Assembly: GCA_000565255.1 (NCBI GenBank)
Contig: ASRH01000008.1
Span: forward strand, 1 to 55,719
Direction of reading: 5' to 3'
Length of the DNA stretch: 55,719 nucleotides
Source of the DNA: Candidatus Aramenus sulfurataquae
GTDB lineage: Archaea; Thermoproteota; Thermoprotei_A; Sulfolobales; Sulfolobaceae
This document shows, piece after piece, positions 1,268-53,882 of the stretch (positions within the stretch are counted from its first letter, which is position 1; every line of letters starts with the position of its first letter). Made by a program: the position numbers and the translations under genes. The notes beneath the pieces are model-generated. The model was not told where the DNA came from. It ran no database searches and saw nothing but the letters and a program-made list of their open reading frames with translations.

Positions 1268-1927
1268 TTACACGACCTTTGGCAACACCTTGGATATCTC
1301 CCTGTAGTCAAATTCTATCCACTTTGCCAGTTCCTCGCACACCACCTTGAACAAGTTAGCCCTAGGGTCACTCATAACGTCCCTGGCCCAGTCTATGACC
1401 CAGTTCACCACGTGTCTGTTCAAGAACTCGCTCTCCTCCTTCACTGTCTTCATGAAGTCCTTCCCCTCCTTCCTCTCCTCAATTTCTTCCCTCGCCAGCA
1501 GGGCCATGAAGGCCAGGATCGTAGTTATGTGGTCCGGTTCATGTATGAAGCTCCCTGCGACCTTGGGGACCACACCCCTTCTTTCGTAAAAGGAGGTTAT
1601 GTCCAAGTACTGTCTAAGAGCTTGTTTCTCACCAGAGATTGCGAAAGTTCTCCTACTCTCCACTGGCATTAGAGGTTTCAATCCAAGACCAGTAAGGAAC
1701 AATGTTGTGTACTCTATGGCGTAATCCTTTTTCTTGATCTCGGAGAACTTTTTCGCGATCCTGGGAAAGTCTACTCCGCTTACCTCCTTTATAGCTTGGC
1801 CTAGGTTCTCGCTTACCTTGTTAACCTTGTCTATCATTACCTTGTACTCGTCGTCGTTAATCTTATAGAAAAATATCTCGGAAAAGGTGTCATATACGTA
1901 AAACCTAATTACCGGAAGATCAGACAT
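1268..1927 (-). CDS. TorD/DmsD-like molybdoenzyme assembly chaperone
   Basis: The protein of about 219 residues has family-typical sequence: a YTTLFLTG-like segment followed by a PVESRRTF-like stretch, and later HEPDHITTILAFM, matching the E-PDH helix motif of TorD-type chaperones. Such proteins bind the twin-arginine leader and help insert the molybdenum cofactor before export. The start was set at the MSDLPV methionine, because the longer frame runs back into the upstream ferredoxin gene. It is third in the minus-strand set after the catalytic and ferredoxin subunits, so it is probably their private chaperone. The A. ambivalens sulfur reductase cluster has a comparable gene (from memory). 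Confidence 0.8.
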   Translation of the reverse strand: MSDLPVIRFYVYDTFSEIFFYKINDDEYKVMIDKVNKVSENLGQAIKEVSGVDFPRIAKKFSEIKKKDYAIEYTTLFLTGLGLKPLMPVESRRTFAISGEKQALRQYLDITSFYERRGVVPKVAGSFIHEPDHITTILAFMALLAREEIEERKEGKDFMKTVKEESEFLNRHVVNWVIDWARDVMSDPRANLFKVVCEELAKWIEFDYREISKVLPKVV

Positions 1928-1940
1928 AAAAAACCTACCT

Positions 1941-2765
1941 TTAGGAGTTGGAAGAGTTGGAGGGTGGGTTCTTCTCTGTAGACGTGGAGTTGTTACCTTG
2001 TGCTCCAAGCTGTACTACGCCGTTCCCAGTCCAGACGTTATAATACTCGGCTTGTGATAGCAGAGGCACGTCGTTATCAGCAGCGTAATTGCTCCTCCAC
2101 GGGAGGTAACCGCTAGCTGGATTGGCACCGGTCTCTGGGCCTAGGACGAAACCTCCCTTGTCCACAAACAATATGGTTCCAGGGTCTGTTGGATCTAACA
2201 CGTTAGCCCATGTCCTGGCTTGCACCATGCATCCGTGTATACACGCTGGTATCCTCTCCTCTGGCGGCAAGTTGGGATCGTTGATCCTGTCGAAGCAGTG
2301 GGTACACTTCTTGACCACTCCCTCTATTGGGTCGAACAGCCTGTTCCCGTAGGGACAGCCGTAGATGCAGTACTTACAGCCTATGCACTTGGTGTAGTCT
2401 ACCAGCACTATCCCGTCCTCTACTCTCTTGAAGGTAGCGCCTACTGGACACACTTCCACACATGGGGCGTGGAGGCAGTGGAAGCAGTTTATTGGTATGT
2501 TGTACACTTTAGTCTGGGGCCATTCTCCTATCTCTATGTAAAGCACCCTCAGCCAGAACATCACGTCTAGGTCTCCGTAGGGGTTTAGGTCTGGAAGAGG
2601 CCCAAACATCCCGGACGTATTCCACTCCTTACATGACATCTGACAGCCTCCACAGCCAAAGCACTTGTTCAAGTCAGTTATTATTGCGTAGTTTGCTTTG
2701 GGGTGGAAGGGTATTGAGTACTCTACCCCTCCTTGGTATATGTTTAGATTAGGGTTGGACGACAT
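1941..2765 (-). CDS. sreB: Four-cluster ferredoxin subunit of a DMSO-reductase-family enzyme (SreB/PsrB-like)
   Basis: The 274-residue protein has sixteen cysteines spaced for four [4Fe-4S] clusters: C35/C38/C41/C45, C94/C97/C102/C106, C127/C130/C133/C137 and C154/C157/C175/C179. This is the electron-transfer subunit layout of polysulfide, nitrate and DMSO reductases, carrying electrons between a membrane anchor and the molybdenum site. It has no signal peptide, so it would travel with the twin-arginine-bearing catalytic subunit. The gene lies 10 bases after the catalytic gene and 13 bases before the chaperone, in one operon. The symbol rests on the overall cluster composition and is provisional. 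Confidence 0.85.
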
Positions 2766-2775
2766 TTAGGTCACC

Positions 2776-5700
2776 TCAAGAGGAAGATGAGGTGGTGGGT
2801 TCTGCCGCGAACCCATACCTCACCTTGTAGTTGCCTATTACGTAGTTGTTCTGGGCCAAGGAGCTGGGCGCCACGTAGCTCCACAGGGAGGTGCTCTGTA
2901 TGTTGTTAGCGTCGAATCTCAAGTGCGGGACCGTGACCTGCTGGGCGAAGGCAGGCGTTGTTGGAGCGTTCTTAACCGAGATCTGTCCGCCCATCTGCGA
3001 CACTATTGCCGACAGTATATCCTGGTTGCTGAAGTCCTTGCCCATATAGACGAACTTGTTTGCAGTTACCTGCACCTGGTTGACGTTGGCCTTGCCTATG
3101 ATCTTTATCCTGGAGTCGTGCCACACGGTTTGCCCAGTTATGGGGTCCAAGTTCATTATCGGGAAAGCGTTGTCGGTGTCTGGCGATAGCATCCCTCCCC
3201 TAGAAGGAGGCATATAGGTTATATTGGCCCAGTTGTTAAGCACGCTGTACTTTACCTGTGGAGAGTCTGGCGTCATTCCCCTGAAACCTGGCAGCGCTTG
3301 CGCCGACACCACGACCCACGCTGCCCCTGGCCTAGTAGCCTCGTCTAGGAACGCCACGGCGGTGAGCTGAGTTCTCAGTCCTCCGCTCCACGGCTCGTTT
3401 ATTGCCTCGAAGGTCACAAAGTCCCCACTCTTAATCCCCATGGACTGCACGTATGGGTCCTTTGCGCTCAGCATCACTGGAGTGTATGGCATCATTGCCA
3501 TTAACCATGGGACGTTGAAGGACCAAGTGTGATAAGTCCTGTCGTGCCTCCTCACAAAGAAGGTCAACGGATACTCGCTCAAGTTTACTCCGTCGCTTGT
3601 GATCTCAGACATCCAGGTTGGTGGTGGGTAGTAGCCTCCGAAAGGTCTGTGGTAGTCCAGTATGTTCTTGGCTAGAGCTTTACCGTAGCTGTCGTTTGGT
3701 AACACAGAGGGAACTAGGAAGGCGCTGTTGCCGGTTTGCTTGTAGTAATAGTAATAGGCAGCGTTGTAGCCCTTCCACTTCCCTGCTGCTGCTAACCTAA
3801 ACTTCTGCAGGTACTCCAAGTAAATCCTGTGGATCCACGGCAGGCCAATATTACCGTAGCCTCCAGGCATGAACGCACCCCATCCCCTGAAGTAGAACAT
3901 GTTGACGTTCCTCATGTACCTTATCGAGGGAGGTAGCACGTAGGCCGCTCCGCCTTTGCCGACTTTCACTATCCCTGGGTTTATATCTTCTAGCGTCATC
4001 TGGTTGCTGGCGTAGTTGTTAATTATAGTCTGTAACATGGCCTGCAGGAGCGGCTGGAACTGCACTTGAATCCTAAAGTAGTGCTCTATCCCTGAGGACC
4101 TCTGGTTTGCAGCTATCTTGTAAGTGTTAGCAGTGGAGAACGTCTGGCCTTGTGGCACTTGAGTAAGTATCTGGTTGATCACGGTGCTCTGGTCGACGCC
4201 GTTGGGAACGAAGGAAGCGTAAAGCTTCAACTGCTGGTTGTTGGGTACTTCGGCGCCCTCTTCGTTCGCAAGTATGTACTGGAAGTTGTCGCCGTAGCCC
4301 GCAAGTAATATTCCACTCTTCAGAATGTACATCCCAGTGGAGATGAGCCCGGGCTGTCCTTGGGTAAGGATTTGCTGTCCGGTCACTGGGTCGTGTAGGT
4401 TGATTGGGCTTATTAGCGGTAAGCCAGTGACTGGATCTTGCGTCGTGTAATGTGGGTTATTCGTGGGCGAGATAGAGAGGTTGGGGTTAGCCTTCTGGTT
4501 GGGGTATCCCCTCAGTAGCCACAACAGGGTAAGCATGAAGTCGCCGTTAGATAGGACTGGGTAGAGGGCCGGTAAGGCAGGCCAGTTAAGCGAGTCAGAG
4601 GGTCCCTGAGGCAGGCTAGTAGGCCTGTCAAAAGTGGAGTGGAAGCCGTAGATCTCAAGGAAGGAGAGGTCTGGGATTACTAGGTCGACTACGTTGTTTG
4701 TCTCTTGCATGAACAAGTCGACGCTGATGGTGAAGGGGACGTAGTAGTTTCCGTTCTGGTCGGTCTCAGTCACCTTCTGTAGCAAGTCAGTCAAGGTGTA
4801 CGCGTTGTTCCAGTAAGGCGCAGTTATATACCACATCATTGCTTGTATCTGGTAGGGGAATATCCCCTTGCTCGCATACTTGTTAGCTAGGTAGGCTGTG
4901 TAGGATACCGCGGAGATCGACCTCTGCGTTGTCAAGGGCATCTCCCAGCTGTAGCCCCTGTCTATCAGCAAGGGCCTCCCGTTCTTGTATATCACTAGGT
5001 CGTCGGGGCCGTCTGGGAACCCATATGGACCCGCAGGGACTACGCTTACGCTTACTATGTCCACCGTTCCGTCGTTGTAGATGAGCTCGTTCTTCAGGAA
5101 GCCTGCTCTTCCTCCTGCTGGGGCCTTCACACTCGCGAGGTCGGGGTCAATTGACGGAGTGTTCGCAAGTGGGTGAGGAGGTACTGAGTGTCCAGGGAAG
5201 TAGTGTGGATACGGGTACTTGTACAAGTCCGCGCCGGGGTTGTCCCAAGCGCCAAGTAATAGCACTAAATAGTAATAAGCTGAGGCGGACATGAAGCCGT
5301 TTCCGTGGGCCGCTAGCCCCCTCATGAAGTATATTGAGACCGGCCTCCCTGTTACTGTGCTGTGGTACCTCCCTAAGTAATCCACCCACTGGGCTGGTTG
5401 CTCAATTGCCTTTTGGAAGGCTACTAAAGCCATTTCATTTGCCGTCCTTATTACCGTGTTGTGGGGTATTCCAGTTACGTCGGCTACGTTCAGGGCACCG
5501 AACTGTGGGGACTGGGAAGACGGAGTATACGGGTCGTAGTTCATCAACTCAGCCCTGAAAAGCTCAAAGGCTGTGGTCACGGTCAACGTTATGTTTTGGC
5601 CGTTAGGGGAGACTGGAACTGTGACTTGTATTGCGGGCACCTTCACGGTCTGCCCGTTCTTAAGCTTGTAGGGCACTTGAACTATCTGCGACTGCATGCT

Positions 5701-7137
5701 CTGAGGTAGCTCGTCCAACGTAAGTATTGGCATTACTCCGTTCTGCCACGGCGTGTCGACGTATGAGTACACGTTGCCGTCGCTCCCCATTATCGCCTCT
5801 AACCAAGTGTGGGCGGGGAACGTGATGGACACTGTCTTGCCAGAAGACGTCGTGGCCTCTATCGTCTGGGGCTTAGCGTACTGGGGGTTCTTGACTGGCA
5901 TCCTCAAGTGGAGGCCCACGTTGCTACCAGCGTTGGGGTCAGTTGGGTCTAGGACGTCGCCGTTAGCGGGGTTGGGGTTGACTACGACAAGCCACGACAA
6001 GTTAGTGTAGTATCTAAGGAACTCCTCATCTACGTGTGGAAATATTGCAGTTGAGGGTATGTCGCCGAGCTGTGGTAACTGAACCACTTGACCGCTCGGC
6101 GTAATGGTTTGCATAACTGCCTGCCCACTGCTTGGGTCAGTAGCAGGGGTGACTGGCTGTAGGGTTATGGGGTTGAGCACAGTCTTACCTTGCCTCACCT
6201 TGTACACATAGTAATGGAAGTCGACCAACACTCTCATCCAGCCCATTGCAAGGGCTCCGTCAGTGGCTGGGTTAATGTATAAGTGCTCGTCAGAGACGCT
6301 ATAGAAGCCAAACCTCTCGGGAGCAATCGTGAGGACTTTACCACCGTTCTCCCTTATCCTGGCAATGATCCTCCTCATCCAATTGGGGAAGTGGTCTCCA
6401 GCAAGCCCTGATAGTATGAAGTACTGGGCTCTCTCCTCGTCTGGCCCGGCGTACTCCCACACAGGGGCACCCGTGACGTAGACGCCCGCCGTGTAGACGT
6501 TCATTGAACAGAATCCGCCGTGAGCTCCACTGTTCGCTGTGCCGAAGTTACCCGCGAAAAAGCCCGCGTCAATTCCAGGGACAAGCTGGTCCCTGCCTTG
6601 GAAGTAGGCCAAGGAGTGTGGGTTCGTCTCCCTTATCTTAAGTAGGCCGGGGAAATTACCCACGCCGAGGTCTGACGGATTTAGCCCTAGCTTGGACCAT
6701 GATTGGGCGTTTGCCCCGTTGACGATTATGTCGAAGGCAGTGTCGTAGTCTATTGCCATCCACTGTCCAGAGCCCCTAGGCCCAGCCCTCAACAGGGGAT
6801 ACCTCAGCCTAGCGGGGGTAAAGTAATAGTAGACGTCTGACGCGCCCCTTGGACACACTCCTCCATCGTTTATGTGCCACCCAATTGTCCCCGTTACGAA
6901 CCTCGGGAATCCCTGTGGAGTTCTGACTACCTCTATTGCACATCTTCCCAAGCACTGGAAGCAGTTTGTGTAGACTATCTCGTCGTTGGGGTAGTTAGGA
7001 GTGTAGGTGACGTCGTTGGAGACGGAGGTAAATACCTTGTCCACAGCAGAGGGTAATCTGAGGAGTAAGGCTGTACCTACAGCAGTGAAACCGCTTATCT
7101 TTAGGAAGTCACGCCTAGTTACCTTTAGCTGGCTCAT
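2776..7137 (-). CDS. sreA: Very large molybdopterin oxidoreductase catalytic subunit (SreA-like, sulfur/polysulfide reductase candidate)
   Basis: This 1453-residue DMSO-reductase-family enzyme begins with a twin-arginine signal (RRDFLK, residues 8-13, then a hydrophobic stretch), so it is predicted to be exported folded to the outside of the membrane. C59, C62, C66 and C95 match the N-terminal [4Fe-4S] site. C210, in GGFCSMN, sits where the protein ligand to molybdenum is found, and a cysteine is the ligand type of polysulfide and nitrate reductases. Family members are usually 750-1000 residues; here long insertions extend the middle, roughly residues 310-560 and 640-1000. The ferredoxin and TorD-like genes follow directly. 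Sulfur or polysulfide is the most likely acceptor, but other oxyanions cannot be excluded. Confidence 0.82.
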
Positions 7138-7167
7138 TCCCGTTCTCTAGACGTTCTCTCATGCCAT

Positions 7168-7180
7168 TTTTTTAAACGTT
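7168..7180 (-). promoter_or_regulatory. Probable TATA box for the molybdoenzyme operon
   Basis: On the minus strand a GTTTAAAAAAAT-like stretch lies about 31-43 bases before the ATG. Initiation about 26 bases downstream would give a short leader. It was found by eye from the usual archaeal spacing. Confidence 0.4.
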
Positions 7181-7261
7181 CACTCCAGACTACCGATATT
7201 TCCAATTATGCATGTTTTAGTTAGCAAGTGTAGTTGATTTACCACAAAATAAGTCGATTAA

Positions 7262-7310
7262 ACATAAATGTAAAACTTAAATTACTTGACTTACATTTAT
7301 ATGTAGGTCA
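7262..7310. promoter_or_regulatory. Inverted repeats between divergent redox operons, operator candidate
   Basis: Two overlapping dyads are visible. TGACTTACAT at 7287-7296 faces ATGTAGGTCA at 7301-7310 with a four-base spacer (9 of 10 positions paired). ACATAAATGTAA at 7262-7273 faces TTACATTTATATGT at 7291-7304, which is complementary apart from a two-base insertion. The site lies between the two divergent promoters and near the winged-helix gene, as expected for a shared operator. Function is inferred. Confidence 0.5.
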
Positions 7311-7379
7311 GGAAGTTTCTCTACATCATTCTTTAGACATAATTCGGATATAAATTTAAATAGACTTTAATAAGAAAAT

Positions 7380-7388
7380 TTTTAAGGT
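7380..7388 (+). promoter_or_regulatory. TATA box for the winged-helix gene
   Basis: A TTTTTAAGG stretch is centred about 26 bases before the ATG at 7410, the spacing of a leaderless crenarchaeal promoter. Confidence 0.5.
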
Positions 7389-7409
7389 TAGTATACAATT
7401 ATCTTTTTA

Positions 7410-8048
7410 ATGGTTAAGCTGTCCCTGGACGACGACGACCTCGTAGTGTTGGAACACTTTGTGTCTCTCCCGCACCTTACCTCGTACAAGTTCTCCAAGC
7501 TAACCAAGATCCCCAACGCTACAGCCTGGAGGCTTTTCCTAAAACTGGCTGAACTTGGACTCATCAAGAAGTCCTCTAAGGGGTTCGCGATTACTCCAAG
7601 GGGAGTCGTGCTCACCTACATATTCACGGCCAAGAAGAACGTCAAGGCCAACTGCCTCAAGCTCCTCAAAGAGCTCTGGCGGTACGGTGGAAGCGAGGAG
7701 GAGTTGGGGAAGTTCATAGACGACTTCTACAAGGTAATCACGTCAGCTGGGATCTCGCCCTTCATTGTCTGCTTTAACCAACCCATAACCATTGCAATGA
7801 TGATGTACAACAGGCTTAACGAGGTAAGCGAGGACAGCAAGAAGGTGATAGCCGAGATGTTGTTGAACTACTTCAGCCCAGTAGAGGTAAACGGGTGCAG
7901 AGTGCTCATCTCCTATGACGGCGAGGGGAGGCCATACGCCATAGCAGCTAAGTGCAGGAAGGAAGGGATAAAGTTGAACTACTACTGCTCTGAGATCGAG
8001 AAGATAGTGGGTAAGGTAAATGCCACACTACCTAGAGGACTACGTTAA
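7410..8048 (+). CDS. Winged-helix DNA-binding protein with cysteine-rich C-terminal half, likely regulator of the cluster
   Basis: Residues 8-68 read as a winged helix: LTSYKFSKLTKIPNATAW as a helix-turn-helix followed by a GFAITPRG wing. Residues 80-212 are unlike any family I recognise and contain five cysteines (C82, C121, C163, C182, C193), which could bind metal or sense sulfur or redox state. The leaderless start has a TATA box 26 bases upstream. The gene is divergent from the molybdoenzyme operon and next to a dyad repeat, which suggests local transcriptional control. The 3' end overlaps the next frame by 29 bases. Confidence 0.72.
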   Translation: MVKLSLDDDDLVVLEHFVSLPHLTSYKFSKLTKIPNATAWRLFLKLAELGLIKKSSKGFAITPRGVVLTYIFTAKKNVKANCLKLLKELWRYGGSEEELGKFIDDFYKVITSAGISPFIVCFNQPITIAMMMYNRLNEVSEDSKKVIAEMLLNYFSPVEVNGCRVLISYDGEGRPYAIAAKCRKEGIKLNYYCSEIEKIVGKVNATLPRGLR

Positions 8049-8886
8049 AGCTGGCTTCAATCCCTCAACTACTATGGTCACTTGCGACTTGGGTAAGGCA
8101 TTCTCCTTGTTTTTAGGTAAGGGAAAAGTAAAGCTAGTTTTTGTTAACTCCCCGAAGCCCTACTCCTTCGACGCCCAAGTGATAGTACAATACTTCTCGC
8201 TTAGGCGCGACGAGGTCTTTGCCAGGGAGGTCTCCCTAGAAAGGGAGGGAGGAGTTTCTGCGACTACGCTGAGGTTCGTGGACGTTGGAGTACCTCTGAG
8301 CTCCAAGCTCTACGACAGGGTTATGGAGGCCCTCTCCTTAAACCCCCTAGTAGTTAAGGGAGTCGTCGACAACCTACAGTTCACGAGGGAGGACGAGTTC
8401 TTTGGATGGGGTATTGGGGAGGGTAGGGCGAACCTCACGCTTAAGCCCTCTCAAGCTGAAAAGTACTGCCTCATAGGCGAGCTGGGCGAACTCCTAGCCC
8501 TCTCCGTCCACAACAGGGCTGTCCTTGGGATGCTCTCCGCTGAGCCCTACCTACTGAAACAGGGGGAGGAGTTCTTGGAGTCCCACACCAAGGTATATAG
8601 GGAGCTCGGAGAGGTCATAAGGTCTAGGGAGGACGAGATCCTCTTAAGTGAAGAAGTTGGACTCAGCAGACCAATGGAGAGGCTTAAAGGCCTTAAAGTT
8701 GACAAGTTTCCCGTAAAGGATCCCTTTGCCTTGAGGAAGTACGGGGGGCTAATGAAGGATCCATTTGCCTCTCCCTTCTTTGTTGTCGTCGTGGGAAAGG
8801 CTAGGGCAGTGGAAGAGGTCTGCCAAAAGGCCAAGTCCCTTGGACTAAGGTCTGAAATGGGAACGGTACAGACTCTCACTTCTTAA
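8020..8886 (+). CDS. Conserved-looking protein of unknown function
   Basis: The 288-residue soluble protein is alternating alpha/beta with no signal or membrane segment. It ends in a strand-like hydrophobic run, FFVVVVGKARAVEE, followed by a helix. I do not recognise the fold; sugar-kinase or AIR-synthase-like architecture was considered without motif support. The ATG at 8020 overlaps the regulator gene by 29 bases; an in-frame ATG at 8074 would leave a 25-base gap and is equally possible. Co-transcription with the winged-helix gene is likely, so it may act with that regulator or in enzyme maturation. Confidence 0.65.
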   Translation: MPHYLEDYVKAGFNPSTTMVTCDLGKAFSLFLGKGKVKLVFVNSPKPYSFDAQVIVQYFSLRRDEVFAREVSLEREGGVSATTLRFVDVGVPLSSKLYDRVMEALSLNPLVVKGVVDNLQFTREDEFFGWGIGEGRANLTLKPSQAEKYCLIGELGELLALSVHNRAVLGMLSAEPYLLKQGEEFLESHTKVYRELGEVIRSREDEILLSEEVGLSRPMERLKGLKVDKFPVKDPFALRKYGGLMKDPFASPFFVVVVGKARAVEEVCQKAKSLGLRSEMGTVQTLTS

Positions 8887-8963
8887 TTAATCTTATCTTC
8901 ACTTTTTCGATATGAAAGGGAAGTAATATATTGGTTTTTAATTACATTTGAGAAGCTTAAATT

Positions 8964-9728
8964 ATGGAGGACCCTATAGAGGAGGGGCTAAAGCTACTAG
9001 AGGAGAAAAAGCCAGAGGAAGTGTTACGCTTACTTGATGGAATTGACTTGCCTGAAGCTTACGCCTTAAGGGCTAGGGCATACCTCCTCTCCAGGGAAGA
9101 GGAGAAGGCGGTGAAAGAGCTCGACAGGGGGACGGAGAGGTTCCCGTACTCCCACATGTTGTACTTCGAGAAGGCCCTCCTGTTCCTCGCGATGGACAAG
9201 TTGGAAGAGGCGTTAGAACAGGTGAAGAGGGCCTTGGAAATCATGCCCTACTCCTATGACTACAAAAAGTTAGAGGCGGAGATTCTATTTAGGCAGGGAA
9301 AGTACGAGGACGCCTTCAACGTGCTTGGAGATGTGATAAGGCTTAAACCAGACGACGTGGAGGCAAGGCTCATGAGGGCTGAGTGCTTCTACGCTTTGGG
9401 AAAGTACTTGGACGCCCTCTACGAGATAAATAGGGCACTGGAGTACGACAACAAGAACCCTTACCTCCACTTCTTGAAGGGGAGGGTCTACTTGGAGACC
9501 AGGTACTACAAGCTAGCGGAGAGCGAGTTCAGGATAGCCCTAAGCCTAAAGGCAGACCCCGAGTTCGCGGTTGGCTTGGCTGTGGCGGAGTTCTTGGGAG
9601 GGGAGAGGGAGAAGGCCCTCCAAGAGATAGAAAAGGCGATGAAGCTCTTCCCGGACTACAAGAGGGCGAGGGAAGTCTACGAGACCATGTTGAACCAGAC
9701 TGGAACTGGAAATATTTCCTCTAAGTAA
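8964..9728 (+). CDS. Tetratricopeptide-repeat protein
   Basis: The 254-residue protein consists of about six consecutive 34-residue helical pairs with TPR consensus residues, for example EEALEQVKRALEIMPYS, ALGKYLDALYEINRAL and YYKLAESEFRIALSL. It has no signal or membrane segment. TPR arrays are protein-protein scaffolds. Inside this redox cluster it may help assemble the iron-sulfur and molybdenum subunits, which is inference from position. A GTTTTTAATT box about 26 bases before the ATG indicates its own leaderless promoter. Confidence 0.8.
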   Translation: MEDPIEEGLKLLEEKKPEEVLRLLDGIDLPEAYALRARAYLLSREEEKAVKELDRGTERFPYSHMLYFEKALLFLAMDKLEEALEQVKRALEIMPYSYDYKKLEAEILFRQGKYEDAFNVLGDVIRLKPDDVEARLMRAECFYALGKYLDALYEINRALEYDNKNPYLHFLKGRVYLETRYYKLAESEFRIALSLKADPEFAVGLAVAEFLGGEREKALQEIEKAMKLFPDYKRAREVYETMLNQTGTGNISSK

Positions 9729-9812
9729 TATCGTTTTCCTGAAAATATCTGCTTTAAATCGAGCAACGAGACTAGAAATAGGGTGTAGCTTATCGTCCTT
9801 CCTGTAGGCGTA

Positions 9813-11303
9813 GTGGTGTCCAAGAAGGTCAGGGAATACTTGGGAGACGACTTGCTGAGAGAGGTGTTCGAGGAGGGAGGGCTAGCGTACATAGCCGAGT
9901 TCGGCGATTACCTAGTTAACGACTTGAGGGATAACGGCGTGCAATCGTTGGTTGTGGCGAGCGAAAGGGAAAACAAGGAACTGGAGGACTTCCTGGAGAG
10001 AGTTGACGACTTCACTCCAATCCATCCCCTGTCCGTGGAGAGGGTCTACCTAGACTGGTTCCAGGGGAAAGAGCACGGGAAGGCACTTCTTCTGGCCTAC
10101 GCCTACAAGGCCTCCATGTCTTACTTAGCTAAGAGAGTACAGCCCTTGAGGAGGAAGAGCGTCTCCAGGAGGTCTTTGGTTAGGGGTAAGCTCTACTATT
10201 ACAAACCATACCCAGTCCTACAACAGGAAGTGCAGTTTGAGAGGGAGATGAATTACCTATCCTCCCTTTGTCCCTTAATCGAGAAGTCCTTTGAGGGTCC
10301 CCATGTTTCAGACCCAGAGAAGTGCTCTGCATGCGGCTTTTGCTCCGGTATGTCCTTCCTGGGTTACCTCGAGGTACCAAACTTCACGACAGACCAAGTA
10401 GTGCACTTCCTTAACGCCTTGAACAAGTACGCTCCGAGGGACAAGCCCGGCGTAGTGCTTTTCACGTGCAACAAGGCACTCAAGATACCAAAAGTGGAGA
10501 ACGCGTACGTCTACCCCTTAATCGCCCCGTGCGTGGCCTCAGTTCACGACTCCTTCTTGGCGTTAACTTACGCCACCGGCTTCTACCCCCTCGTGTACTC
10601 TCCTGACGGAGCTTGCGAGCTGAGGGACGTGGCAAAGCTCAGGGTAGAGGCGTCAATGAGGAAGTTCCCAGGGACCAAGGTTCCCTTCCCCTTCGCCCAA
10701 GACGAGGCTGAGGCCAGGGACTGGGCGGAGAAGCTATCCCGCATGCCGGTGCCCCAAGGCAAGCAGGTCCCGGAGGAACTGGTCATGGGCAGGAGCAGGA
10801 GAAGGGGGCTACTACTGTGGGCCATCAAGGAGACAACTGTGGAAGACGAAGAGGAGGAAGTGCCGGGAGTCTATAAGGTGGTAGTGGATCCCAACAAGTG
10901 CGTCCTATGTGGAGTGTGCGTGAGGTCCTGCCAGATGCTCGTCTTTGAGCAGATCTCCACTAGGGACTCCACCACCCTCTACCACGACATGTCCTATTGC
11001 ATAGGCTCCCAGAGGTGCATAAGGAACTGCCCTGAGAAGGCCATAACCCTTGTGGGTCTCTCTAAGATAAAGGACTTGAAGAAGACCGTAGCCTCCTCGA
11101 GCCAAGTGGTCAGGTGTAGGTACTGCGGCAAGCCCTTGGACTCCTATAGCCTCAAGAACAGGGTGAGCACAGTTTTGTCCTCCCTTGGGATAGACGACGT
11201 AGAGGACTACACGGACGTCTGCAACGACTGCAAACAAAAGTTATTAACCAAGAGGTGGGTAGAGAGGGTGTTGAAGAATGGACTTCGCGTTAACACTCGT
11301 TAA
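9813..11303 (+). CDS. Polyferredoxin-like electron-transfer protein with C-terminal zinc-ribbon-like motif (SreD-like)
   Basis: The 496-residue protein has a large N-terminal half without recognised domains, then C171/C174/C177 (an incomplete cluster motif), C363/C366/C369/C373 (a classic [4Fe-4S] motif) and C396/C401/C405 followed by P (a second, widened motif). C435/C438 and C470/C473 form a CxxC...CxxC pair like a zinc ribbon. There are no membrane segments. Translation starts at one of two adjacent GTG codons (9813 or 9816). The Acidianus sulfur reductase cluster includes a polyferredoxin, which supports a role in passing electrons to the reductase. The next gene overlaps the 3' end by 26 bases. 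Confidence 0.72.
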   Translation: MVSKKVREYLGDDLLREVFEEGGLAYIAEFGDYLVNDLRDNGVQSLVVASERENKELEDFLERVDDFTPIHPLSVERVYLDWFQGKEHGKALLLAYAYKASMSYLAKRVQPLRRKSVSRRSLVRGKLYYYKPYPVLQQEVQFEREMNYLSSLCPLIEKSFEGPHVSDPEKCSACGFCSGMSFLGYLEVPNFTTDQVVHFLNALNKYAPRDKPGVVLFTCNKALKIPKVENAYVYPLIAPCVASVHDSFLALTYATGFYPLVYSPDGACELRDVAKLRVEASMRKFPGTKVPFPFAQDEAEARDWAEKLSRMPVPQGKQVPEELVMGRSRRRGLLLWAIKETTVEDEEEEVPGVYKVVVDPNKCVLCGVCVRSCQMLVFEQISTRDSTTLYHDMSYCIGSQRCIRNCPEKAITLVGLSKIKDLKKTVASSSQVVRCRYCGKPLDSYSLKNRVSTVLSSLGIDDVEDYTDVCNDCKQKLLTKRWVERVLKNGLRVNTR

Positions 11304-11778
11304 CACCTTGGTGTACGTCCCAAACGCAAAGGAAATCCTAGAGACGGTGGAGAAAGCTAACGACTACTTTGACGTAGACTTAGACCCCAGGTCGGTGAGG
11401 GCAAAGGAGGACGCCTACTTCCTAGAGGAACTGTCTTACAGGGGAAGGATCTTCCTAGTAACCAACGTCAAGAAGTCGACCGCTATGAGGGTATTGGCCA
11501 GACTAAACTTGGACTCTTTCATCACTAGGGTGGTGTCTGCAGAAGAGGTAAAGAGCTTTACAACTTCCCCTAAGTTCTTCGACTACTTCTACAAGGTAAC
11601 TAACGCCAGAAGGGGGACGTACTTCGTCACCTCCAACAAGCTCTCCTTGGAGTCAGCTAGGAAAGCCGGGCTTACAGTGGTTTACCAAGAGGGAAACGTC
11701 CTAAGGAAACTCGTGGAGGCCACTGGCAAGAAATACGTGGAGTCTAAGATGGGAGACTCAGCCTTGAGGTGCACGTAA
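11278..11778 (+). CDS. HAD-like protein lacking the catalytic aspartates
   Basis: The 166-residue protein follows the order of a small HAD phosphatase but with degenerate motifs. Motif I appears as LTLVNTLV where DxDGTL is expected. Motif II is FLVTNV (T62), motif III is KSFTTSPKFF (a lysine at 92 or 99), and motif IV is YFVTSNKLSLESARKAGL where GDxxxD is expected. With neither nucleophile nor metal-binding aspartates, catalysis seems unlikely; a structural or sensing role is more plausible. It overlaps the polyferredoxin gene by 26 bases and shares a TAATG with the next gene, so all three are probably one transcript. Confidence 0.65.
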   Translation: MDFALTLVNTLVYVPNAKEILETVEKANDYFDVDLDPRSVRAKEDAYFLEELSYRGRIFLVTNVKKSTAMRVLARLNLDSFITRVVSAEEVKSFTTSPKFFDYFYKVTNARRGTYFVTSNKLSLESARKAGLTVVYQEGNVLRKLVEATGKKYVESKMGDSALRCT

Positions 11779-12176
11779 TGAACGAGAACGACATAGCCAA
11801 CTTGTTCACTGAGCTGGGAATGAAGGTGGAGAAGGGCAACGCCCCAGGGGTCTACACCCAGCTCATCATCTCACCACCCTTAGGGGATGGCCCCAAGGTC
11901 ACCGTCATTAGGCCCTCTTCCACTTCCAACTACTTCGTTGTCACAATGGTAATAGAGACAGACGAAGGAAGGCTAACCCCAAGTAAGGTAAGGGCAATAA
12001 CCACGGAGCTAGCGAAGATGAACGTGGAGGTGTACATGACCCCTCCAGACAAGCCTAGGCTAATACACATCGCGAAGATAATTTACGCCGAGGGTGCAAA
12101 CAAGAACGACGCTATAAACGCGGTAACGTTAGTGAAGAACGCGGGCATAGTGGCCTTCAACCTACTTGCGGATTGA
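11778..12176 (+). CDS. Small soluble protein, possibly YbjN/secretion-chaperone-like fold
   Basis: The 132-residue protein starts at the ATG of a TAATG junction with the previous gene; a GTG nine bases earlier is less likely. The pattern of an N-terminal helix, a five-strand-like middle and a C-terminal helix resembles the YbjN/DUF2299 type fold, a weak impression without motif proof. It has no cysteines and no membrane segment. It lies just before the membrane-anchor gene, so a role as assembly factor for the complex is possible. Confidence 0.6.
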   Translation: MNENDIANLFTELGMKVEKGNAPGVYTQLIISPPLGDGPKVTVIRPSSTSNYFVVTMVIETDEGRLTPSKVRAITTELAKMNVEVYMTPPDKPRLIHIAKIIYAEGANKNDAINAVTLVKNAGIVAFNLLAD

Positions 12177-12246
12177 AATATGTTCTTCCAGTAATATTAT
12201 AAAGCTGAAACTAATCTTTATTTATACTTTTGGAGGACTCACAGTC

Positions 12247-13287
12247 ATGGGACTATTTACTGCACCTGCTCCAGGCACTAGTTTCGGAGTCCAGGCGCCT
12301 ATACTGCAGATAAATCAGTACCCAGAGTGGGACGTGACCGTGGCCCTAGCGCTGTTCTTCACGGGATTAGGAGGCATGCTAATGGCAATAACTGGCCTCT
12401 TAGAGGTAACTGGGAAGTACCCTGGATTAGTGAAGAGGAACTCGGTGTTCGCCTTCATCTTCACAGCCCTGGCGCTAATCTTCTTCGACATACACCTAGG
12501 CAACCCAGAGAGGGGGTTCTTCGCCCCTATAAACGCCTTCCCCCAGATGGTCCACTCGTGGATGGCGAGGGGTATAGAGTTCGTAGGGGGCCTACTGCTA
12601 TTTACGTTCATATTCATGGCGTTGAAGGTAGTACTAAACAGTAAGAGCGTGGTCTTAAACTGGACGTTTGCAATCCTCGGCGTCCTCGCGGGGATATTCT
12701 CAACTACCTACAGCGGCTTCGAGCTCTCTGCGGCAACTGGCGTGCCCTTCTGGAACAACGGAGGCCTCCCAGCCCTCTTCCTTGCCTCCGGGACAGTGGG
12801 AGGGGCTGCGTGGAGCTACATAATGAGCTTTGTGGGTAGCGGAGAAGAGTGGATAAGGGCAAGGAGGCTAACAGCCAAGCTACTGGCTTACTCCACCATT
12901 GCAGAGCTAGCGACGTGGTTCCTGTTCGTGGCAAACGTCAACTTCATCAACGTCTTCGACGAAGTAGGCTACATCTACTTAGTAACTTCAGCCACCTTCG
13001 CCCTAGACCTAGTGTTGTTAGGCCTAGGCTTCGTTGTCCCAGGGATAGGGACGCTTATGATCTGGAGAGCTACTAAGGCTACCGGCGGCAATACGTTGAA
13101 CGACTTCTCCATGGCAATAAAAGTGGCTATATTGGTAGTGGCAGTCCTCGCACTAGTAGCAGGGTTCTTTACCAGAGCTGACGTGCTATTCGCTGGACAA
13201 TACGCGTACCAGTTAGCTCCTCTAACTCCATTCCAGTACACTTCGAACCAACCAGTACCAATTGGATCGTTCGGATGGAGAAGTTAA
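12247..13287 (+). CDS. sreC: Multi-pass membrane anchor subunit, NrfD/SreC-like quinone-interacting protein
   Basis: The protein has about 346 residues and eight to nine hydrophobic membrane segments with short loops, plus an FDIHLGNPERGFF-like loop that resembles the LGxPxR region of NrfD/PsrC-type anchors. Such subunits hold the molybdenum and ferredoxin subunits on the membrane and exchange electrons with quinone. The start was taken at MGLFT: a TTTATACTTT box about 26 bases upstream and a GGAGG stretch about 11 bases upstream both favour it over the longer frame opening at 12166. Size and company match the roughly 37 kDa anchor of the A. ambivalens sulfur reductase as I remember it. The symbol is provisional. 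Confidence 0.72.
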   Translation: MGLFTAPAPGTSFGVQAPILQINQYPEWDVTVALALFFTGLGGMLMAITGLLEVTGKYPGLVKRNSVFAFIFTALALIFFDIHLGNPERGFFAPINAFPQMVHSWMARGIEFVGGLLLFTFIFMALKVVLNSKSVVLNWTFAILGVLAGIFSTTYSGFELSAATGVPFWNNGGLPALFLASGTVGGAAWSYIMSFVGSGEEWIRARRLTAKLLAYSTIAELATWFLFVANVNFINVFDEVGYIYLVTSATFALDLVLLGLGFVVPGIGTLMIWRATKATGGNTLNDFSMAIKVAILVVAVLALVAGFFTRADVLFAGQYAYQLAPLTPFQYTSNQPVPIGSFGWRS

Positions 13288-50200: not shown

Positions 50201-52477
50201 ATGGTACACTACTTGGAAGGCCTTAGGGCCGTAAAGGGGGAGGGAGAGTACATCCATGACCTCCCTAGCCCGCCTGGGACCCTCTACATGGCGATTTACA
50301 GGAGCTACGTGCCCCACGGGAGGATAAAGAGGGTGGACGTCTCAGACGTAGTTAGGAAGGGGGGTATAGCTTACACCAACGAGGACTTGCTCAAGTTGGT
50401 GAAGGCACCGTTTCCCTTGGCCCTCCCAGTAAAGGTTGAGTACTACCCAGTGGCGAAGGGCAAGGTCAGGTTTGTGGGCGAACCATTGGCTGTGGTGTTG
50501 GCTGAAGACCCTTACAGAGCGGTGGACCTCCTGGAGTACGTCAACGCGGAAATAGAGGAGCTACCTCCTGTCACCAACGCCCAAGAGGCCCTTAAAGGGA
50601 AGGCACTGGTACACGAGGAGCTGGGGACAAACGTGGTAATGAGGAGGCACATGGAGTTCGGCGACGTGGAGAGGGCTTTCAAGGACTGCGACGTTGTAGT
50701 TAGGAAGGACTTCAAGGTCGCTAAGCACTCAGCCCTCCCCCTTGAGACCTATGGGATCATAACTAGGTTCGGAGAGGAGCTGGACGTGATCGCGAACGTC
50801 CAGGGCCCAATGCTCCAAGCGTACTACGTGGCAAAGGCCCTAGGCCTCCCTGAGAGCAAGGTAAGGATTAGATCGCCGAGGGACATAGGCGGTAGCTTCG
50901 GCGTCAAGTACTCCCTCTACCCATACATTGTGCTTACCGCGGTGGCGTCAAAGCTCTCTGGCAGGCCAGTGAGGTGGACTGAGAGCAGAACAGAGAGCTT
51001 CCTGGCTTCCTCCTCCAACGCAGATAGGGAAGGCTACGTGGAGCTCGGGTCCACTAGGGATGGGAGGATAAGGGCGGTCAAGTACAACTTCCTCGAGGAC
51101 GTGGGGGCTTACCCTAGGCCCCCGGAGCCCGGCGCCCTTTTCAGAGTACAAGGCAACTTGAACGGGGCGTACGACGTGAGGAACATAGAGGCTGAATACA
51201 CAGTGGTGGTCACAAACAAGTCGCCCACTGGACTAAACAGGGGCTACGGCTCCCCTCAATTTTACTTCGCGTTGGAGACCGCAGTGGACGAGCTGGCCAA
51301 GGAGCTAGGACTAGATCCGCTAGAGCTAAGGAAGAGGAACTTGATAACGTCCTTCGACAAGGTGGTTCAAGGCTACCCCTTTTACGAGACTGCCACTGGG
51401 GGCCTCTACCCAAAGCAGGACTACGCAAAGGTCGTACAATTGCTGGAGGAAGAGTACAAGAGGGCTAGGAGGGAAGAGGGAATGGGGGTAGGGGTCTCAA
51501 TCGTAATTGAGCCCTCCGTGACCAACCTGGGCTATGTGGACTTGGCTGTAGAGGGGGAGAAAAGGAGGCACAAGCACTCCCCCTCAGGAGAATACGTGAC
51601 GCTTTCCCTCAACTACGACGGCTCGCTTTCTGTTTTTGTGAACTCCACCAACGAGGGACTTGGCCACGAGACGGTGGTGGCAGAGGTCGTTGCTAGGGAA
51701 TTTCACGTAGATCCCTCCCAGGTCAAAGTTGAGTACAAGGTAGACACTTCACATCCCTGGGCCCTTTCCAGCGGTAGCTACTCCTCTAGGTTTGCCCCTC
51801 TCGTGGTTAGCGGGGTTATAAAGGCCTGCGACGCGCTAAAGGAGAGGCTAGCTGATCTAGCCAAGAGGTACTTGGAGGGGGAGGTGAAGTTCGTCGAGGG
51901 GAAGTTTGTGGACGAGAAGGGAAGGAGCGTGGACTTGAAGACGTTGGCCTCATCATTCCACTGGGACCCATACTCATTCCCTGGGAACTTGACAGTCACG
52001 GTCTTCTACCACTCAGACCTTCTCTACCCAGCAAACGGAGACAAGGTGAACTCCTCCCTTGGCTACTCGATCCAGGGGCACTTGGCAGTCGTTAAGGTCG
52101 ACCCGCTCACCCACGACGTAAAGGTGAAGAGATACGTGGTGATCCACGACGTGGGAAAGGTGTTGAAGGAGGAGCTACTGGACGGGGTTATGTACGGTAG
52201 CGTCATCCAAGGGCTTGCCGAGGCGCTCTACGAGAGACTAGAATACGACCCCAACGGTAATCCCCTCGTGACTACCTTTGACGCTTACGAGACCCCTACC
52301 CTTGCAGAAGTGGTAGGGATGGAGATAACGCTTAAGCACCTAGAGGGAGAGGTTAAGTTCCTCCCATCCGGCGCCCTAGGCGCTGGGGAGGGGCCTATTA
52401 TGGGTGTGCTAGCTACTTTGGCGAACGCGGTATCAGATGCCCTAAAGAGGAGGGTCAACCAAGTGCCCATGAGGTGA
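50201..52477 (+). CDS. Molybdenum hydroxylase large subunit (xanthine dehydrogenase/aldehyde oxidoreductase family)
   Basis: The 758-residue protein has the fold of CoxL/CutA-type subunits: GGSFGVKYSLYPYIVL, an active-site loop NRGYGSPQ at residues 346-353, and the catalytic Glu at E730 in LGAGEGPIMG. True aerobic CO dehydrogenases have a selenosulfurated cysteine loop, AYxCSFR, which is absent, so an aldehyde such as glyceraldehyde or an N-heterocycle is the more likely substrate. Sulfolobus glyceraldehyde oxidoreductase belongs to this family. The cofactor-domain gene follows after four bases. Confidence 0.88.
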   Translation: MVHYLEGLRAVKGEGEYIHDLPSPPGTLYMAIYRSYVPHGRIKRVDVSDVVRKGGIAYTNEDLLKLVKAPFPLALPVKVEYYPVAKGKVRFVGEPLAVVLAEDPYRAVDLLEYVNAEIEELPPVTNAQEALKGKALVHEELGTNVVMRRHMEFGDVERAFKDCDVVVRKDFKVAKHSALPLETYGIITRFGEELDVIANVQGPMLQAYYVAKALGLPESKVRIRSPRDIGGSFGVKYSLYPYIVLTAVASKLSGRPVRWTESRTESFLASSSNADREGYVELGSTRDGRIRAVKYNFLEDVGAYPRPPEPGALFRVQGNLNGAYDVRNIEAEYTVVVTNKSPTGLNRGYGSPQFYFALETAVDELAKELGLDPLELRKRNLITSFDKVVQGYPFYETATGGLYPKQDYAKVVQLLEEEYKRARREEGMGVGVSIVIEPSVTNLGYVDLAVEGEKRRHKHSPSGEYVTLSLNYDGSLSVFVNSTNEGLGHETVVAEVVAREFHVDPSQVKVEYKVDTSHPWALSSGSYSSRFAPLVVSGVIKACDALKERLADLAKRYLEGEVKFVEGKFVDEKGRSVDLKTLASSFHWDPYSFPGNLTVTVFYHSDLLYPANGDKVNSSLGYSIQGHLAVVKVDPLTHDVKVKRYVVIHDVGKVLKEELLDGVMYGSVIQGLAEALYERLEYDPNGNPLVTTFDAYETPTLAEVVGMEITLKHLEGEVKFLPSGALGAGEGPIMGVLATLANAVSDALKRRVNQVPMR

Positions 52478-52481
52478 GGCT

Positions 52482-53882
52482 ATGTTCGCGCTAGGCTTTC
52501 CCAAGGCGTTCCGCTACTCTAGACCGGAGAGCCTAGAGGAGGCGCTAGAGGAGCTCGAGGAGGGGGAAGCGGTACCACTTGCAGGCGGGCAGAGCTTGAT
52601 ACCTATGATGAAACTGAGGGTCTTAGAGGTAAAGGGCCTAGTGGACTTGAACGACTTAGAGGAGTTGAGAGGGGTAAGGGAGGTGGAGGGAGAAGTAAGG
52701 ATAGGGGCGTTGGAGACCCACAACGAAGTGGCGACCAACCAGACCTTAAGGAGGGAGTTCCCGTCCTTGAGCGCCTCAGCGTGGGAAATAGCGGACCTGC
52801 AGGTGAGGAACAGGGGGACGATAGGAGGGTCCATAGCTAACGCCGACCCCTCCTCCAACTACCTCCCCGTCCTCATGACGCTGGACGCAGAAGTGGTGAT
52901 AGTGGGAAAAGGAGAGAGGAGGGAGAGGTTGGAAGAGTTCGTGAGAGGGCCCTACACGACGAGCTTGAGGAGAGGGGAGCTGGTGAAAGAGGTGGTGTTA
53001 AGGAAGGAAAATAGGAGGACCGGCTTCGCCCTAGCCAGGAGGGGCGGTTCATCTTACCCCATTGCTGTCGTAGCGGTGTCCATGTCCTTGGAGGACGGAG
53101 TGGTAACTTCGTCTAAACTGGCAATAGGAGGAATCTCCGAGAGACCAGTGTCCTTCAAGGACTTCCTAGTGGGGAAGGGTTTGGGCGAAGTGAAGGAGGA
53201 GGAGGTGTTGAAGGCCATCGACCCCCTGCTGGAGGAGGTAGGGGTGATTGAGGACGTCCACGGAGGAAAGGAGTACAAACTGAAGGTCGCCAAGAGGCTT
53301 GTGGTGGAGGCAGTAAAGGAGGTAGCACGGCCTCCCCCAGTAAAAGAAATGGAGACTCACTGGAGGAACGGCAGAAGGCTTGGGCCCAGCACGCGCCACG
53401 TGGTCAAGGTCAAGGTGAACGGAACGTGGCTTGAGGGGGAGGTGGAGTCGAGGAAGCTCCTAGTGGACTTCCTCAGGGAAAGGGGGTTCACTGAAGTGAA
53501 GAGGGGCTGCGATGAGGGAAAGTGTGGAGCGTGCACGGTTCTAGTCAACGGGAGGGCCGTGAAGTCTTGTAACGTCTTTGCAGTCCAGGCTGATAATCAA
53601 GAGGTGACGACAATAAGGGGGCTAGTTAAGGGAGAAGGACTTAACTACCTCCAGAGGGCATTCCTTGAGAGTTACGCGATGCAGTGCGGCTTTTGCACCC
53701 ACGGCTTCATGATGGTCACTCACGATTATCTAGATAACGTGGACCCAGAGGCTAAGGACGAGACGCTAGTGCACTGCGTAAAGAACGTATGTAGGTGCAC
53801 TGGCTATGTGCAGATAATCAAGGCTATAAGGACTGCGTCAAGGGAACTGAGGGAAAAGGGTGTCCACTATGGAGTTACTTAG
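52482..53882 (+). CDS. Fusion of FAD-binding and 2Fe-2S subunits of a molybdenum hydroxylase
   Basis: The 466-residue protein fuses two subunits that are usually separate. Residues 1-290 match the medium FAD subunit: PLAGGQSLIPMMKLR and RNRGTIGGSIANADPSS bind FAD. Residues about 310-466 match the small subunit: C343/C348/C351/C363 hold one [2Fe-2S] cluster and C402/C405/C437/C439 the second. Electrons pass from molybdenum through both clusters to FAD. The gene starts four bases after the large-subunit stop and overlaps the convergent transporter by eight bases. No stop or frameshift separates the halves. Confidence 0.9.
   Translation: MFALGFPKAFRYSRPESLEEALEELEEGEAVPLAGGQSLIPMMKLRVLEVKGLVDLNDLEELRGVREVEGEVRIGALETHNEVATNQTLRREFPSLSASAWEIADLQVRNRGTIGGSIANADPSSNYLPVLMTLDAEVVIVGKGERRERLEEFVRGPYTTSLRRGELVKEVVLRKENRRTGFALARRGGSSYPIAVVAVSMSLEDGVVTSSKLAIGGISERPVSFKDFLVGKGLGEVKEEEVLKAIDPLLEEVGVIEDVHGGKEYKLKVAKRLVVEAVKEVARPPPVKEMETHWRNGRRLGPSTRHVVKVKVNGTWLEGEVESRKLLVDFLRERGFTEVKRGCDEGKCGACTVLVNGRAVKSCNVFAVQADNQEVTTIRGLVKGEGLNYLQRAFLESYAMQCGFCTHGFMMVTHDYLDNVDPEAKDETLVHCVKNVCRCTGYVQIIKAIRTASRELREKGVHYGVT

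Follow-up and report, generated by a model that had tools for sequence, protein, structure and literature searches.

A large molybdoenzyme of the SoeA lineage with a Tat export signal, encoded in a ten-gene cluster conserved in Sulfolobaceae

The window analyzed here, a 55,719-nucleotide stretch of contig C8 from the 1.80-Mb genome of Candidatus Aramenus sulfurataquae (Sulfolobaceae), carries at positions 1268-13287 a cluster of ten genes, all of which were confirmed, around a molybdoenzyme with an exceptionally long catalytic subunit (subunit A). A sequence-only reading of this DNA had described the cluster as sulfur-reductase-like. That description does not hold for the catalytic arm: subunits A and B belong with SoeA and SoeB, and the genome encodes a separate sreABCDE set. 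Judging from sequence, we propose, with a probability of about 0.5, that the complex is an exported, quinone-linked sulfur-oxyanion oxidoreductase that most likely oxidizes external sulfite or SO2 and reduces quinone.

The long A subunits and a sister family of shorter archaeal enzymes join SoeA-like proteins with support of 100/100 in two trees, whose SoeA references are plasmid-encoded SoeA-like proteins identified by operon context rather than biochemically studied SoeA. Approximately unbiased (AU) tests rejected a clade of the long and sister families with the sulfur reductase SRE (p 1e-6), as well as a clade with TtrA/ArrA that excludes SoeA (p 1e-3). Pairwise searches point the same way: sister-family A proteins align with SoeA at 31% identity over 90% of their length (513 bits) but score at most 88 bits with SreA, and a reverse search from SoeA returns the sister proteins first. 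Subunit B is 47% identical to a SoeB-like protein of Paraburkholderia, its best match outside the family, versus 30% to SreB. The molybdenum-ligand motif AHGGFC is common to subunit A and SoeA and differs in SreA, PhsA and TtrA, and the NCBIfam TtrA model gives subunit A 54 bits against a cut-off of 1750. A sulfur reductase by descent is rejected by the trees, the AU test and the subunit B scores: subunit A groups with neither SreA (PsrA/PhsA-related), PhsA nor TtrA.

Among plasmid-borne bacterial genes, the closest relatives form A-B-DmsC operons and come from Paraburkholderia, Azospirillum and Indioceanicola. The Azospirillum operon adjoins xsc, whose enzyme frees sulfite from sulfoacetaldehyde, and genes typical of sulfonate breakdown of the sulfoacetate type. 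Ruegeria soeABC adjoins pta and a taurine regulator (PMC4334477), and the SoeABC enzymes of Aquifex and Allochromatium have been described as sulfite:quinone oxidoreductases (PMC8076601).

The archaeal enzyme shares with SoeABC the clade of A and B, the [4Fe-4S] and AHGGFC motifs, a four-cluster B subunit and the presence of a membrane anchor subunit. It differs in that subunit A has a twin-arginine translocation (Tat) signal, whereas SoeA is cytoplasmic without an export signal; in carrying ~365 residues of scattered inserts; and in a cluster that adds genes for a chaperone, a polyferredoxin, TPR, HAD and DUF2299 proteins and a regulator. The anchor is also of another type, hardly alignable to SoeC or SreC and matching NrfD-type PF03916, where the Paraburkholderia operon encodes DmsC (PF04976). 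Since A and B are kin of SoeAB yet the anchor is of the NrfD type, we regard the complex, as predicted from its genes, as a mosaic: a SoeAB-type catalytic arm in an exported SreC/D/E-type setting. TtrABC is likewise exported, with a Cys ligand, a B subunit and an NrfD-type anchor; TtrA, however, shares only 23% identity with subunit A over 21%, and the clade excluding SoeA is the one rejected above.

The resemblance to SreABCDE noted in the sequence-only reading is real at the level of gene content: five genes match (A, B, an NrfD-type anchor, a SreD-like polyferredoxin and a NarJ-type chaperone), and A is Tat-exported in both. In contrast, the catalytic subunits fall in separate regions of the tree and share ~27% identity over ~10% of A, the B subunits and anchors are as distant as described above, and the polyferredoxin of the long cluster has fewer iron-sulfur clusters. 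An sreABCDE-like gene content does not identify the catalytic subunit. The canonical-looking A-B-NrfD-polyferredoxin-NarJ set of the same genome lies on contig C23 (L039, G000:C23:1-8469) and has a 1035-residue A. GC content is 36% for this 8.5-kb contig and close to 50% for the genome as a whole; the contig also includes an adjoining UbiE-like gene, and its sreABCDE cluster was probably acquired horizontally. The same type of set is common to genomes G014, G017, G021, G045 and Metallosphaera yellowstonensis (G018, 1054-residue frame), and sreABCDE co-occurs with the long cluster in seven genomes. We equated this 1035-1059-residue type with Acidianus SreA through the reported distribution rather than through the Acidianus ambivalens sequence: a published survey lists M. 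yellowstonensis as having SreABC (PMC11143483), while strain A20 and S. acidocaldarius have been reported to lack SRE, and A20 to lack SOR too (PMC5127849).

Subunit A contains five Cys in all of its 1453 residues, each at a cofactor-ligand position: C59, C62, C66 and C95 are the [4Fe-4S] ligands, and C210, within AHGGFC, is the molybdenum ligand. All five, together with the twin arginines, are invariant across 15 aligned relatives, and the twin-arginine leader, absent from SoeA, occurs in every member of the long and sister families examined. Subunit B has exactly 16 Cys, enough for four [4Fe-4S] clusters. Subunit A had been singled out as unusually large, which is true in comparison with bacterial SoeA (977-1001 residues), TtrA (1021) and the SreA of its own genome (1035), but its length is normal among its own orthologues (1421-1456). 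A single added domain as the source of the extra length was ruled out: the ~365 residues in excess of SoeA fall into 11 separate blocks of at most 84 residues. PF00384 scores the long subunit A at 19.5 bits, under its 24-bit cut-off, and a listing of PF00384 proteins in 13 genomes never included the long enzyme; domain-based surveys can thus miss the long family.

Of the 31 Sulfolobaceae species searched, 22 have a long subunit A orthologue; none was found outside this family in a sample of 398 genomes of the phylum, and no relatives were found in viral contigs. Identity among orthologues is 74-97% for subunit A and 80-97% for subunit B, compared with ~25-65% for the accessory proteins outside the genus. 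The same gene set recurs around every intact orthologue examined, far beyond chance, in two arrangements. The split into two arms, as seen in this window, is one of them; in Metallosphaera and Sulfurisphaera-like genomes the order is TPR-A-B-NarJ-polyferredoxin-HAD-DUF2299 on one strand. The cluster is a distinct subtype, as had been suggested, and its catalytic subunit belongs to a family that matches it in length and in accessory genes, although we found no paper that describes this family as such.

Carriers of the long cluster include G015, G004 and G042, which we take to be S. acidocaldarius, S. tokodaii and M. sedula; G010 is presumably M. cuprina. Genomes G018, G022 and G011 are M. yellowstonensis, M. 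javensis and archaeon Acd1. The cluster is also present in G005, which corresponds to Sulfolobus sp. A20 (PMC5127849). The copy in G045 is pseudogenized: its catalytic gene is broken by an IS110-type transposase (L088:4214-9681) and its NrfD gene is split too (10697-11773). Over the 31 species, we detected no anticorrelation of the cluster with SRE, SOR or TetH (Fisher p 1.0, 0.68 and 0.11, with phylogeny ignored), and the presence of these genes, which does not track with the cluster, was dropped as a clue to function.

SoeAB has been reported by annotation, with putative function, in all Metallosphaera genomes (PMC7325606, PMC8551704). The long enzyme is likely the source of this annotation, because the other PF00384 proteins of G010 and G042 are 582-1000-residue types.

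The sister A proteins (1227-1270 residues) are encoded with B, NarJ, polyferredoxin and NrfD genes in genomes that we infer to be Thermoproteus-, Vulcanisaeta- and Caldivirga-like, and in G002, G013 and G044. They share ~31-34% identity with the long family by BLAST, or 40% by alignment, along with the Tat signal, NrfD anchor, polyferredoxin and NarJ chaperone, but are shorter. TPR, HAD and DUF2299 genes were not detected in the sister clusters read. In G013, G044, G180 and G123, which represent two distant lineages, doxDA lies within a few kb of the sister cluster (Table 1). One sister cluster is immediately followed downstream by tatA-like genes and tatC (L036:14682-16224), which fits an exported enzyme. 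Genome G140 encodes a 1240-residue sister A at 44 kb (L148; G140:C1:44096-47380) and a leaderless 836-residue enzyme at 70.5 kb. This pair matches two operons of T. tenax, TTX_0045-49 (sreA1, with Tat signal) and TTX_0073-75 (sreA2, without) (PMC3189178). By this match, the published sreA1, whose activity was assigned by homology, probably covers an enzyme of the SoeA lineage, and its sulfur-reductase name may be wrong.

The gene positions and identities given in the sequence-only reading stand (Table 1), save two starts that were revised by comparison with orthologues: NrfD begins at ATG 12247 instead of TTG 12166, with orthologues beginning MGLF.AP.PGT.FG, and NarJ at ATG 1927 instead of TTG 2008.

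Table 1 Features of the long cluster in the window, and doxDA genes beside sister clusters.
Feature	Position	Strand	Basis or remark
NarJ/TorD-family (DMSO_red_II_cha-like) maturation chaperone, 219 aa	1268..1927	-	PF02613 58 bits, TIGR03482 55 bits
Electron-transfer subunit B, SoeB-like, 274 aa	1941..2765	-	PF13247; 16 Cys, four [4Fe-4S] clusters
Catalytic subunit A, molybdoenzyme, 1453 aa, Tat leader (TRRDFLK)	2776..7137	-	SoeA clade
Divergent promoter region, subunit A gene/regulator gene	7138..7409		Alignment
Winged-helix regulator (IclR-type N-terminus), 212 aa	7410..8048	+	PcaR/PcaU N-terminal match 22 bits; conserved cluster neighbor
288-aa protein, fast-evolving	8020..8886	+	Overlaps regulator gene and travels with it
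TPR protein, 254 aa	8964..9728	+	PF07719/PF14559; conserved
SreD-like polyferredoxin, 496 aa	9813..11303	+	HycF-like C-terminal half
Catalytically dead HAD-fold protein, 166 aa	11278..11778	+	Conserved C-terminal MGDSALRC
DUF2299 protein, 135 aa	11769..12176	+	PF10061 81 bits; orthologues found
NrfD-type membrane anchor/quinone site subunit, 346 aa	12247..13287	+	PF03916 42 bits
doxDA (thiosulfate:quinone oxidoreductase) beside sister cluster	L037:12153-13195, L086:4751-5790, L080:13057-14167, L081:13000-14065

In the divergent promoter region, a TATA-like T/A run on the subunit A side is conserved across five aligned genomes. Four to five extra accessory genes had been counted in addition to the sreABCDE-like set, and five are conserved: those for the regulator, the 288-aa protein, the TPR protein, the HAD-like protein and the DUF2299 protein. 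The 288-aa protein has no Pfam or NCBIfam match and gives a poor structure model (predicted local distance difference test score, pLDDT, 60); diverged orthologues stand beside the regulator in Metallosphaera-type clusters too. The polyferredoxin has lost one N-terminal cluster relative to SreD, and Ser replaces one Cys of its last cluster. Its model is confident (pLDDT 87), and a fold search matched only the HycF-like C-terminal half and generic ferredoxin folds, with no named match for the middle domain. The HAD-like protein, called dead in the sequence-only reading, indeed lacks both the motif-I Asp and an acidic motif IV across 14 orthologues, and its MGDSALRC tail is near-invariant. The NarJ-type chaperone occupies the position equivalent to SreE and has an orthologue in nearly all intact clusters. 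Together, the NarJ, polyferredoxin, HAD, TPR and DUF2299 proteins may be maturation machinery devoted to one exported enzyme of very large size, with the TPR protein a candidate assembly factor. Elsewhere in the window, positions 50201-53882 encode a second molybdenum system, with a xanthine/aldehyde/CO dehydrogenase-type large subunit and a FAD-[2Fe-2S] subunit.

The sequence itself shows the make-up of the cluster, the export signal, the cofactor ligands, the kinship with SoeAB and the conservation; substrate, direction of electron flow, energetics and accessory roles we infer as follows. Subunit A, with molybdenum-bis(pyranopterin guanine dinucleotide), a Cys ligand and one [4Fe-4S] cluster, and subunit B, with four, would fold in the cytoplasm and be matured by the NarJ-type chaperone, probably aided by the polyferredoxin, TPR, dead-HAD and DUF2299 proteins. 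The Tat signal of A would carry both across the membrane together, and on the outer side they would dock onto the NrfD-type anchor. External sulfite or SO2, which could be supplied as volcanic SO2 or by thiosulfate that decays in acid after its release by TetH, would be oxidized to sulfate, and the electrons would pass through the five clusters to caldariellaquinone and on to terminal oxidases. As the oxidation would take place outside while the protons for quinone reduction might come from inside, an exported enzyme could conserve energy, which cytoplasmic SoeABC would not. Outward-facing oxidation of sulfite or SO2 is favored because SoeAB kinship and a Tat signal combine with retention in aerobes; G015, which has neither SOR nor DoxD nor TetH, keeps the family too. 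An enzyme of this kind had been suggested to use another electron acceptor; the partner substrate may indeed differ from sulfur, and it could well donate electrons instead of accepting them.

Several observations weigh against sulfite oxidation. SoeA is cytoplasmic and has no Tat signal; the two enzymes thus differ in location and may differ in substrate as well, and the anchor is NrfD-type and not DmsC. The sister enzyme appears to be sreA1 of T. tenax, an organism that reduces sulfur, and this speaks for reduction in that species. Another candidate sulfite oxidase, of the PF00174 family, is encoded in 30 of the 31 Sulfolobaceae genomes, including all complete ones; the cluster is thus not obviously needed for this reaction, and redundancy is possible. 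Sulfite is also thought to arise in the cytoplasm (PMC8551704).

The nearest competitor, possible though doubtful, is a reductase by function rather than phylogeny, in which quinol electrons would flow outward through B to A and reduce external sulfur, thiosulfate or tetrathionate. It would fit the SreABCDE layout, in which A is Tat-exported and accompanied by an NrfD anchor, a polyferredoxin and a NarJ chaperone, and the apparent identity of the sister family with the sreA1 operon; it would also fit the proximity of doxDA, whose product is tetrathionate, to the sister cluster in two distant lineages, and of tetH ~10 kb from the long cluster in 6/6 Metallosphaera genomes, although neighbors shared within one genus are not independent evidence. 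Such an enzyme would, however, be redundant in the seven genomes with a true sreABCDE, its A and B subunits are SoeAB-like, and the T. tenax assignment was made by homology. Moreover, S. acidocaldarius is a strict aerobe, and G015 has kept the long enzyme at 79% identity.

Oxidation of another external reduced sulfur compound (sulfide, thiosulfate or polythionates), with electrons passing to quinone and the cbsAB/soxLN respiratory branch, is unlikely: CbsA-like (PF09459) and cytochrome b genes adjoin the long cluster of G024, as they do the sister cluster of G002, and doxDA and tetH are neighbors as described, but these links are confined to few genomes each and do not hold for the family as a whole, G015 retains the enzyme without DoxD, TetH or SOR, and thiosulfate is already oxidized by DoxDA. 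Reduction of a different oxyanion such as arsenate, selenate or chlorate is very improbable, since the next neighbors of the family in the larger tree, TtrA and an ArrA-like protein from an arsenic plasmid, join on a long branch that is lost in the smaller tree, the clade excluding SoeA is rejected and no ars or similar genes were recognized nearby in the loci read, even though a Cys ligand is common to several oxyanion reductases (PMC10100899).

The literature searched yielded no description of the export signal, size, accessory set or sister family. A published survey found 5 archaeal proteins among 1,354 SoeA-type hits (PMC10100899); the archaeal branch of this lineage is larger than that, and the sub-threshold PF00384 score of the long enzyme may be one likely reason. 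Sulfite oxidation in Sulfolobaceae, and sulfur oxidation in genera lacking SOR, have been described as open in a review (PMC8551704). The conserved cluster provides a defined ten-gene candidate for sulfur metabolism in this family, present in the genetically tractable S. acidocaldarius. Tentatively, and against the odds as we see them, the family could supply the membrane-bound sulfite:acceptor oxidoreductase that Sulfolobaceae have been missing, in the form of a SoeA-type enzyme exported onto an SreC/NrfD-type anchor and acting as an energy-conserving sulfite/SO2:quinone oxidoreductase that faces outward; if true, this would explain the appearance of sulfate outside the cell.

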